NCBI RefSeq assembly: GCF_036924535.1
Contig: NZ_JAZHRT010000001.1
Span: forward strand, 8,742,001-8,806,000
Source: Bradyrhizobium sp. AZCC 2262
GTDB taxonomy: Bacteria; Pseudomonadota; Alphaproteobacteria; Rhizobiales; Xanthobacteraceae
Length of the DNA: 64,000 nt
Direction: 5' to 3'
The position numbers were made by a program, and so were the translations under genes. The notes under the pieces are model-generated. The model was not told the DNA's origin and ran no database searches. It saw nothing but the letters and a program-made list of their open reading frames with translations. Each line of letters opens with the position of its first letter. Position 1 is the first letter of the stretch. Shown here in pieces: positions 4,139 to 7,496 of this stretch.

Positions 4139-5881
4139 TCACACCTCGGCTGTCGCCTGCGCCGTTTCGCGCGCACCTCCGAGCAGCTTGATATTGAGCT
4201 TGCCGCTCGCGAACAGCATGTCATCGAGCGCTTCGCCGAGATCGGCTGACTTGATTGCCGTACCGCCATCCCGGCCAATGCCGGCTTGCGCGGTTCGCCG
4301 CATCAACTCCTTGATGAAGGCGGCGCTGACGCCTCTGGTCCGCCGGACGGCTTCGTCGATCAGGGTTTCGTCGAGCCGCAGCCCCTTGCCGTAGAGCTGA
4401 ACCAGCTTCCTTCGGCCGGTGTCATCCGGCAGCGGAATTTCAATCGCCTGATCGACCCGGCCAGGTCGGTTGGCCAGCGCGCCCTCGAGCTGTTCGGGCC
4501 GGTTGGTAGTTAGGACAAACAGAATGTCCGCATCCTCTTTCAAACCGTCCATCTCGTTGAGAAGATTGTTGAGCATCGATTCTTCGCATGGCCCCATCAT
4601 CTCGCGATCGGTTGCGATGAGATCGACATCCTCGATGATCACCATGGCCGGCTGCAACAGGCGAGCGAGGTTCATGTAGGCTCCGAGCAACTCAACCTGC
4701 GCGGCCATGATGATCAACGTCGTGTGGCCGGGCAGGTTGCTGGCGAGGTAGCGAATGGTATGGGTCTTCCCGGTGCCGGGCGGTCCGTACAGCAGGATTC
4801 CCTTGCGGGTCGATTGACCGAGCTGGCGCAGTTTTGTGCGATGCTGCACAAAGTTCAGGATGTTGCGGTCGAGCAGCTTCAGTGTTGCGTCGGGCAAGAT
4901 CACGTTGGCGCGTTCAACGGGCGGCAGCTTGTGGACCATAAGGCCTCGCGACCTTCCGCGATAATTCGCGCCCCCGTCGAACGACAGGATCTTACCCCGG
5001 TAGCTATTCGCGGCGTTGACCGCGTCCTCGATAGCGATGAAGCAGCGCCTCACGAACTCCGCTCCCGCCGCTCCGGCAGACGCCGCGATTTCAATGCGAA
5101 CACCCGTTTCTTCACCATGTTCGCGATGAGCAGAGAGCAAGACCGCATATCGCAGGTCTTCGGCGCCACACAGCCATAGTCCATTGTCGAGGCATTTGAC
5201 CGGCTCGGCTTCGCCAATCTCCACATCATGGTATTGCGCTGGCGCGATGGCATGAGCGGCCTGTCCAGCACTCGTCAGCGAGGCGAAGGTGAGGGTCTCG
5301 TAGCGGTGGCGCTCCTGAATGCCGAAGAACCTGATGCGCTGGATGGAGAACAACTTGTCCACCGCCACCTGAACGTCGGCGCGCATATGCCCGGGAAACT
5401 GCCGCGACGTCGCGACCAGTCGATCGAGAGGGACGCCGGCGAAATGCCATCCAATGGCCGTGCAGGCAAAGTCGAACCGCTTTGTTTCCGTGATGGCACC
5501 GAGGTTTTCTGCGGCCGCCAGAAGGCAGTCCTCGCAGACCAGTGCCGCCTTGCCGACCCAACGGAGCGGGTCTTCGGAAAAATTGCCGCACAGCTTGCAG
5601 CGATCACTCCCCATGTCATCGCCGGCGCGGGCCGTGATCGCCAGTTGATGGCCCGATGCCCGGATCCGCTCCTGTGCAGCCTGCAACAGCGCCTCCGCGA
5701 CAGTGCGCGGATACGTGCCGCAAACCGCCGTCCCCCTCCTTTCGATGGCGATCATCACTTCAATGGCGTCGCTGGACGGTTGGCTGAATACCGAGCGTAG
5801 CAGACCGATCACAAAATCCTGCGGGGTGTTCTCGTCATTATGAAGAACGAGCTGAACGTAACCAGGCTGAAGGCGATCCAT
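4139..5881 (-). CDS. ClpS-like domain / zinc finger / AAA+ ATPase fusion protein (580 aa)
   Basis: The start at 5881 (MDRLQPGYVQ) follows CCGGAGTTTTTCA. Residues 8-85 read as a ClpS fold: HNDENTPQDFV matches the LLNDDYTPMEFV of ClpS, GTAVCGTYPRTVAE matches its GxxVCGVYTxEIAE, and HQLAITAR closes the domain. Residues 95-119 hold CKLC...CEDC, a ClpX-like four-cysteine zinc finger. An uncharacterised middle region runs to about 340. A single AAA+ module follows: Walker A GPPGTGKT 366-373, Walker B MVIIEDVD 413-420, sensor TTN 458-460, and NRPGRVD 471-477 with the arginine-finger region. The AAA+ part resembles Cdc48/FtsH-type modules. I see no ClpP-docking IGF loop and no C-terminal HbYX. Likely an unfoldase or remodelling ATPase with its own substrate-selection domain; partner protease unknown. 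Confidence 0.85.
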   Translation of the reverse strand: MDRLQPGYVQLVLHNDENTPQDFVIGLLRSVFSQPSSDAIEVMIAIERRGTAVCGTYPRTVAEALLQAAQERIRASGHQLAITARAGDDMGSDRCKLCGNFSEDPLRWVGKAALVCEDCLLAAAENLGAITETKRFDFACTAIGWHFAGVPLDRLVATSRQFPGHMRADVQVAVDKLFSIQRIRFFGIQERHRYETLTFASLTSAGQAAHAIAPAQYHDVEIGEAEPVKCLDNGLWLCGAEDLRYAVLLSAHREHGEETGVRIEIAASAGAAGAEFVRRCFIAIEDAVNAANSYRGKILSFDGGANYRGRSRGLMVHKLPPVERANVILPDATLKLLDRNILNFVQHRTKLRQLGQSTRKGILLYGPPGTGKTHTIRYLASNLPGHTTLIIMAAQVELLGAYMNLARLLQPAMVIIEDVDLIATDREMMGPCEESMLNNLLNEMDGLKEDADILFVLTTNRPEQLEGALANRPGRVDQAIEIPLPDDTGRRKLVQLYGKGLRLDETLIDEAVRRTRGVSAAFIKELMRRTAQAGIGRDGGTAIKSADLGEALDDMLFASGKLNIKLLGGARETAQATAEV

Positions 5882-5941: not shown

Positions 5942-5970
5942 AATCTTCAATAACCCGCAGAGGTTGTCAA
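5942..5970 (-). promoter_or_regulatory. candidate promoter of the ClpS/AAA+ gene
   Basis: On the minus strand TTGACA (plus positions 5965-5970) is followed after exactly 17 bases by AAGATT (5942-5947). The -35 is perfect; the -10 is weak, as is common in alphaproteobacteria. The predicted transcript would start near 5935 and leave a leader of roughly 54 bases before the ATG at 5881. Confidence 0.4.
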
Positions 5971-6900: not shown

Positions 6901-7496
6901 CCAATCCCAACGCCCTTCTACATCGCCGGGACGTCGTCAACGAGCTCCTGCGTGACCGCGCCGACCTCCTCGTCATCGCCGGCCTCGGCGCGCCGAACTG
7001 GGACGTCTCCGCCGCCGGCGATCATCCCAACAATTTCCCGCTCTGGGGCGCCATGGGCGGCGCCTCGATGATCGGGCTCGGACTGGCGCTGGCGCAGCCG
7101 AAGCGAAAAGTGCTCGTCGTCACCGGCGACGGCGAGATGCTGATGAATATCGGCTCGCTCGCGTCAATCGCGGTGGAAGCGCCGAAGAATCTGACGATCG
7201 CCGTCCTCGACAATGAGCGTTTTGGCGAGACCGGCATGCAGAAAACCCCGACCGCCTCCGGCGTCGATCTCGCCGCCATCGCCACCGCCTGCGGCATCCG
7301 CACTTCGCGCATCGTCCGCACGATGGCGGAAGTCACCGAGCTGCGCGACCTCGCACACGAGGGACGGGGAACGGCATTCGCCCAGATCAAGATCAATCCC
7401 GAGGCGCTGGTCTTCGTAATGCCGCCGGCCGACGGCGTCATCCTGACGACGCGCTTCCGGCAATCGGTGCTAGGCGACGAGGCGCTGTTTAATTGA
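6897..7496 (+). CDS. TPP-dependent decarboxylase, beta (PP-domain) subunit
   Basis: The ATG at 6897 overlaps the stop of the alpha gene. The 199-residue product is the pyrophosphate-binding half: GAMGGASMIGLGLALAQP and then the TPP motif GDGEMLMNIGSL (GDG followed by N), with LTIAVLDNERFGETG downstream, typical of the sulfopyruvate decarboxylase beta / acetolactate synthase class. Together with the preceding subunit it would form a heteromeric cytoplasmic decarboxylase. It converges on a LysR regulator across a palindromic repeat. Exact substrate cannot be read from the sequence. Confidence 0.8.
   Translation: MTNPNALLHRRDVVNELLRDRADLLVIAGLGAPNWDVSAAGDHPNNFPLWGAMGGASMIGLGLALAQPKRKVLVVTGDGEMLMNIGSLASIAVEAPKNLTIAVLDNERFGETGMQKTPTASGVDLAAIATACGIRTSRIVRTMAEVTELRDLAHEGRGTAFAQIKINPEALVFVMPPADGVILTTRFRQSVLGDEALFN

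Follow-up and report, generated by a model that had tools for sequence, protein, structure and literature searches.

Related proteins and the fusion gene

YjoB of Bacillus subtilis is a soluble AAA protein with chaperone activity and is not known to carry a ClpS domain or a zinc finger. Bcs1, a mitochondrial protein, is a translocase of folded proteins and has a Walker B motif in the order E-D. It is described as a heptamer with a membrane segment and, in PMC11143374, as having no conserved pore loop and a RecA sheet of seven strands. Here we describe a gene from Bradyrhizobium sp. AZCC 2262 that joins a motor with likeness to these two proteins to parts resembling components of Clp machines. 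It lies in a window of 64,000 nucleotides, the whole stretch of DNA that was analysed (contig NZ_JAZHRT010000001.1, positions 8,742,001 to 8,806,000). A ClpS-like domain, a Cys4 zinc finger and an AAA ATPase are truly fused in one protein, beyond chance. No protein fused in this way is described in the literature searched, most subscription papers being outside that search.

The gene occupies positions 4139-5881 on the minus strand (580 codons and a stop). The reading frame extends up to a TTG at 5950, which would give 603 amino acids, and an ATG at 5881 gives 580. Since the listed homologues, 120 in number, mostly have 578-582 amino acids, the ATG is probably the start. The features of the gene are as follows.

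4139..5881, minus strand: whole gene, from the open reading frame (ORF), homologue lengths and start region
5624..5860, minus strand: ClpS-like domain, residues 8-86, from Pfam (7.9e-17), a match to ClpS in PDB and AlphaFold2 secondary structure
5741..5743, minus strand: Glu47, in place of the amino-group-contacting His of ClpS, as aligned with E. coli ClpS (none of 146 fusions has His)
5525..5599, minus strand: zinc finger of the Cys4 kind, residues 95-119; 146 of 161 family rows have it, and its profile was compared with 31 ClpX fingers
4934..5476, minus strand: middle domain, about residues 136-316, seen in the whole-chain model and in one of residues 128-322; common to ClpS-less relatives
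4172..4906, minus strand: AAA module, about residues 326-570, from PF00004 (1e-19) and the model
4763..4786, minus strand: Walker A motif, GPPGTGKT, residues 366-373, from sequence
4643..4705, minus strand: shortened stretch, residues 393-413, at the site of pore loop 1 in FtsH-type motors, with 8 residues missing
4622..4642, minus strand: Walker B motif, VIIEDVD in E-D order, residues 414-420
4457..4468, minus strand: RPGR arginine-finger region, residues 472-475, from sequence and the conserved columns R472-R475

Pfam matched ClpS and AAA on the 580-residue protein and nothing convincing in between. The AlphaFold2 model of the whole chain, built from 59 sequences, had a mean predicted local distance difference test (pLDDT) of 80.9 and a predicted template modelling score (pTM) of 0.67. 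It arranges the protein as a ClpS fold (8-86), a mostly low-confidence stretch that includes the finger (about 88-135), the middle domain (about 136-316) and the AAA module. An initial annotation of this DNA had named three modules, ClpS, finger and AAA motor; all three stand, while the middle domain had been overlooked. The host genome (9.48 Mb, a single contig) also encodes three separate ClpS proteins and has a ClpX-type gene.

The ClpS-like domain

The N-terminal domain has the same fold as the ClpS adaptor and belongs to the same sequence family. PF02617 matched residues 9-82 of the 580-residue form with 61.3 bits (E 7.9e-17), and a phmmer search with residues 1-87 matched structures of E. 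coli ClpS (E about 1e-10), the alignment being ungapped over residues 6-84. Together with the AlphaFold2 fold, these matches agree with the earlier assignment of residues 8-85 to ClpS. That assignment had been made to depend on the fold and on the relatedness of the region among homologues: the fold holds, and the region is conserved in Bradyrhizobium and absent from the wider family. The fusion differs from the adaptor in that the domain is embedded in a chain of 580 amino acids and in the residues through which ClpS acts.

Passages of PMC12493166 report that Asn47, Asp49 and His79 of Caulobacter ClpS touch the substrate amino group, that Met40 of E. coli ClpS is a gate, and that Glu79, Glu82 and Lys84 contact ClpA. 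The three amino-group contacts are positions 34, 36 and 66 in the numbering of E. coli ClpS, which is used below. At these positions we set 146 fusion proteins against 33 stand-alone ClpS proteins, of which three belong to the same genome and 30 to other Alphaproteobacteria. Those 30 are the loci that scored best among 96 genomes, so that they are biased to the canonical type, and nine of the 146 fusion rows are duplicates. Fifteen of the 161 family rows were left out: eight ClpS-less relatives and seven database proteins whose ClpS part is missing or gapped.

The window protein has N, E and E at the amino-group contacts. His66 is His in 33/33 stand-alone proteins and in none of the 146 fusions, where Glu (105) or Asp (25) makes the position acidic in 130. 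The Met40 gate is kept in 32/33 stand-alone proteins versus 0/146 fusions, among which 12 different residues occur there. Lys84 shows the same division (32/33 versus 0/146, with Leu in 123 fusions), as does Glu79 (31/33 versus 4/146), and Glu82 is less affected (32/33 versus 82/146); it is the only one of the three ClpA contacts that the window protein keeps. At the Asn34 position the fusions have Asn in 54 and Asp in 87 of 146, and at the Asp36 position Asp in 55, Glu in 52 and Lys in 22. Asp35 is retained in 139 of the 146, and of the ClpS loop residues Thr38 is retained in 144 and Pro39 in 143. These counts indicate that the ClpS fold and loop are kept, that the pocket is mostly more acidic, and that much of the ClpA-docking face is changed. 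Judged by these residues, the usual docking of the domain on ClpA is improbable. Loss of function in this part of the fusion is not to be presumed, since stand-alone Leptospira ClpS1, in which PMC12493166 notes the replacements His to Asp, Met to Tyr and Lys to Val, is reported still to bind its ClpA, at 0.44 uM.

The ClpS part is under purifying selection, as estimated from the ratio of nonsynonymous to synonymous substitution rates (dN/dS) in seven pairs of sequences: it ranges over 0.06-0.41 for the ClpS part and 0.09-0.17 for the AAA part. In comparison with the AAA part, dN of the ClpS part is higher in 7/7 pairs and dN/dS in 5/7.

Two of the three stand-alone ClpS proteins of the host genome are themselves divergent. 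One (L002) has other residues at the ClpA contacts Glu79 and Lys84, and the other (L003) has Arg at the Met gate; all three retain Asn34 and His66.

The zinc finger

The finger of the window protein reads C95-x2-C98-x17-C116-x2-C119, and the pattern C-x2-C-x(17-19)-C-x2-C is found in 146/161 family rows, with a gap of 17 residues in 67, 18 in 77 and 19 in two. The 15 rows without it are five ClpS-bearing proteins (L009, L163, L164, L165, L066), eight ClpS-less relatives and two altered or short entries (P0053, P0054). A comparison by hhalign of the family finger profile with 31 ClpX fingers gave a probability of 94.2% in local and 52.6% in global mode. In a repeated local run the probability was 88.9% and the score 27.5, a value that none of 100 column shuffles keeping the cysteines reached (all at or below 22.6). 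The likeness to the ClpX zinc-binding domain, which the initial annotation had pointed out, thus stands and probably extends beyond the cysteines and their spacing, and the finger probably shares descent with that of ClpX. Unlike the ClpX domain, it is joined to another motor, and it is below the detection of the Pfam ClpX-finger model, which had no match to the fusion gene at E <= 10 in a scan of the genome. Elsewhere in the same genome, at about 9.02 Mb of the contig, a 219-codon open frame (L200) carries a ClpX-type zinc finger and is not ClpX.

The middle domain and the AAA motor

The AAA module (PF00004, E 1e-19) has Cdc48 and FtsH as its nearest relatives in sequence, in agreement with the initial annotation. 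The further claim that its motifs are intact was correct in part. The Walker A motif GPPGTGKT and the RPGR arginine region are conserved and the sensor is present, but Walker B reads V-I-I-E-D-V-D, with E-D replacing the usual D-E, and a deletion had been missed: the segment from Walker A to Walker B is eight residues shorter than in FtsH and Cdc48, at the location of pore loop 1. When Walker A-B segments were sorted, five 'ED' segments (four of 45 residues and one of 48) were wrongly placed under 'other', and two of these (L078 and L147) belong to family members. The fusion protein further differs from FtsH/Cdc48-type motors in that Pfam detected no protease domain in the chain. Inspection of the sequence revealed no IGF loop in the motor and no HbYX tail, as had been noted before.

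With the whole chain as a query, the first three Foldseek rows are B. subtilis YjoB (PDB 7w42, 7w46) and the fourth is Bcs1, and a second structure aligner placed YjoB level with rows of the p97/proteasome type. The structural alignment to YjoB spans the middle domain through the AAA module, and in the model the fold and arrangement of N-domain and AAA are like those of YjoB. Common descent of the middle domains is not established: YjoB was absent among the structure matches listed for the middle domain alone, and no likeness to YjoB was seen by sequence either. Like Bcs1, as far as the account in PMC11143374 goes, the fusion protein lacks the canonical pore loop. It differs from that account of Bcs1 in having a ClpS head where Bcs1 has an N-terminal membrane segment, and in a modelled RecA sheet of five strands instead of seven. 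The best match in a library of defence systems was IetA, the ATPase of the IetAS anti-phage system (residues 320-536, the AAA module and preceding linker, 4.1e-20). In contrast to a resemblance of the whole system, that match misses ClpS, the finger and most of the middle domain, and the fusion gene has no conserved neighbour.

Proposed function and alternatives

We see the chances as evenly balanced that the gene encodes a ring-forming AAA chaperone of the YjoB/Bcs1 type that carries a re-tuned ClpS and zinc-finger head. We infer this function from the anatomy. Six or seven copies would assemble into a ring, and by its fold match the middle domain would form a chamber N-terminal to the ring of ATPase modules. 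As ATP is bound and hydrolysed, this chamber would open and close around a client that is folded, fully or in part. Given the deletion of pore loop 1, the client would not be threaded. The chain of many relatives starts with a short leader or with a hydrophobic segment that probably spans the membrane, and the fusion protein would have at that place a flexible arm of ClpS and finger. Clp machines recruit substrates and partners with such domains, and the arm probably captures clients or partners through a protein terminus or another short motif. A more acidic pocket that has lost its gate for hydrophobic residues makes the standard N-degron with Leu, Phe, Trp or Tyr an improbable ligand.

The initial annotation had proposed a self-contained machine in which ClpS binds destabilising N-termini, the finger assists, and the AAA ring unfolds substrates and threads them to some protease. 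That one chain combines a ClpS fold and a finger with complete ATPase motifs speaks for such a machine, as do the retained Thr38 and Pro39 (144/146 and 143/146) and the closeness in sequence of the AAA module to unfoldases. However, His66, the Met gate and the ClpA-contacting Lys are missing from 146/146 fusions, pore loop 1, which threading unfoldases use, is missing as well, and the best Foldseek matches are YjoB and Bcs1. In the chain we found no protease domain, IGF loop or HbYX tail, and no protease gene consistently adjoins it, although a partner may be encoded elsewhere. We therefore consider this proposal very unlikely. A variant, in which an acidic pocket binds other N-termini with basic or small first residues and the ring delivers clients to a protease such as FtsH, is favored by Glu or Asp at the His position (130/146) and Asp at the Asn position (87/146) next to preserved loop residues, and a natural His-to-Asp change appears in the passages of PMC12493166 on Leptospira ClpS1. 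It sits badly with Lys at the Asp36 position in 22/146, and the missing pore loop argues against unfolding for a protease; we hold this variant to be decidedly unlikely.

Alternatively, the ClpS part might have lost terminus recognition and serve as a plain module for protein-protein contact or self-association, linking the ATPase with a partner complex. The variable pocket residues, with 12 residue types at the Met gate position, and a dN above that of the AAA part in all seven pairs are in line with this explanation, and PMC7159879 terms L12/ClpS domains multimerising and has them inserted in other NTPase systems. Against it, the acidic residue at the His position and Asp35, Thr38 and Pro39 are retained at the frequencies given above, which suggests that the ClpS site is still in use, and we regard a plain module as unlikely. 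If the ring-forming chaperone is the correct explanation, an N-degron adaptor fold would sit on a non-threading motor, and proteins recognized by their ends would be passed to a chaperone instead of a protease. A more far-reaching form of this explanation, tentative and rather doubtful, is that an adaptor of proteolysis was co-opted non-destructively: a Bcs1/YjoB-like ring for folded clients would have a ClpS and ClpX-finger head of new terminus specificity replacing the membrane segment, and copies in nif islands would serve folded iron-sulfur or nitrogenase-related clients in symbiosis.

Distribution and history of the family

The fusion gene is accessory in Bradyrhizobium, with matches at E <= 1e-60 in 97 of the 195 genomes from this genus, some of the matches being fragmented or partial. 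In several Bradyrhizobium genomes (G302, G372, G432) the gene is in pieces, which fits accessory status. Among the matches listed for 299 Pseudomonadota genomes, the long ones are all from Bradyrhizobium, and the rest cover the AAA part or little more. The middle domain and AAA module form a core that is common to ClpS-less relatives. Planctomycetota, Abditibacteriota and Actinomycetota have this core (about residues 133-577) without ClpS, and so do plasmids of Rhizobium, Sinorhizobium, Mesorhizobium and Paraburkholderia. An uncultured alphaproteobacterium has a ClpS-bearing, fingerless member (L066). A strongly hydrophobic 19-mer near the N-terminus occurs in 101/118 relatives of a planctomycete query versus 1/120 Bradyrhizobium proteins.

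In a tree of the core, the ClpS-bearing rows stand apart from the actinobacterial and plasmid rows; one row (P0105) is labelled there as finger-only, though its Pfam list includes ClpS. A single origin of the ClpS fusion is not established, as two changes are required to place the ClpS-less rows in the tree, and its long branches come together.

Of 8,000 proteins scored with a planctomycete member, 7,091 reached E <= 1e-30, some of which may be other AAA proteins. This would indicate a large AAA family whose motor is without the loop that defines unfoldases, despite the database names FtsH, '26S protease regulatory subunit' or ClpS on single members. The fusion protein itself is called 'ATP-dependent Clp protease adapter protein ClpS' in some sources. 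Planctomycete relatives, P0124 and P0209 among others, are named FtsH or '26S protease regulatory subunit' and have a Pfam list without a protease domain; these names are probably wrong.

Genomic neighborhoods and nif regions

Around the window gene we observed genes for a glyoxalase-type protein, a thiamine-diphosphate enzyme, a LysR regulator and a rhodanese-type protein, and a short ORF with a signal-like start. No neighbor gene, proteases included, is conserved across the window and 22 other loci, which extends the earlier remark that no partner gene is adjacent. Neighbors are common only to subsets of the loci, which suggests that the gene forms a unit by itself.

A second ClpS-bearing type, which is fingerless, lies in nif regions of other Bradyrhizobium genomes (L163, L164, L166). 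The neighbors in L164 and L166 include nitrogenase-type, iron-molybdenum (FeMo) cofactor (nifX-like), DUF269, ferredoxin and Rieske genes. In all three loci the ATPase gene is followed on the same strand by a gene of about 217-238 codons; the L166 copy has no Pfam match, and the L163 one belongs to the same family by clustering. The Rieske gene comes further on in L164 and L166. Fourteen copies of the second type were picked by hand, and four of them (L163, L164, L165, L166) were read as sequence. Four of the 14 are no more than 12 kb from nifD, a fifth is 44 kb away, two more are 285 kb and 5.6 Mb away, and the remaining seven are on a different contig from nifD. The genome of the window has no nifD. 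Across Bradyrhizobium, nifD is carried by 71/97 family-positive versus 57/98 family-negative genomes, a weak association (Fisher p 0.035) that ignores kinship.

Copies of the ClpS-less core on rhizobial plasmids lie partly in such surroundings. In Paraburkholderia sprentiae it is located between nifK and nifE and annotated as two overlapping coding sequences, on a Mesorhizobium plasmid it is near fdxB and a NifX-associated gene, and in Sinorhizobium it is among groESL, TlpA-type and hemN genes. Copies in nif and symbiosis regions of alpha- and beta-rhizobia open the function of the family to gene deletion. The positions of the ClpS-less plasmid core genes in their loci are as follows.

L144, 5956-7363: ClpS-less plasmid core gene
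L145, 6034-7410: ClpS-less plasmid core gene
L147, 5983-7374: ClpS-less plasmid core gene

The Rieske gene near the nif-island copies was recognized by Pfam in L166 (1.4e-8) and by likeness in L164. A search with a Rieske motif overlooked both of these genes and gave one unconvincing frame (L160). We do not claim the Rieske neighbor as a Bcs1-like client, the level expected by chance not having been computed. Near a planctomycete family member, a Rieske-type motif is present at about position 7182 on the minus strand of L068. This motif and the nif-island Rieske genes could hint at a folded iron-sulfur client, and may be due to chance.
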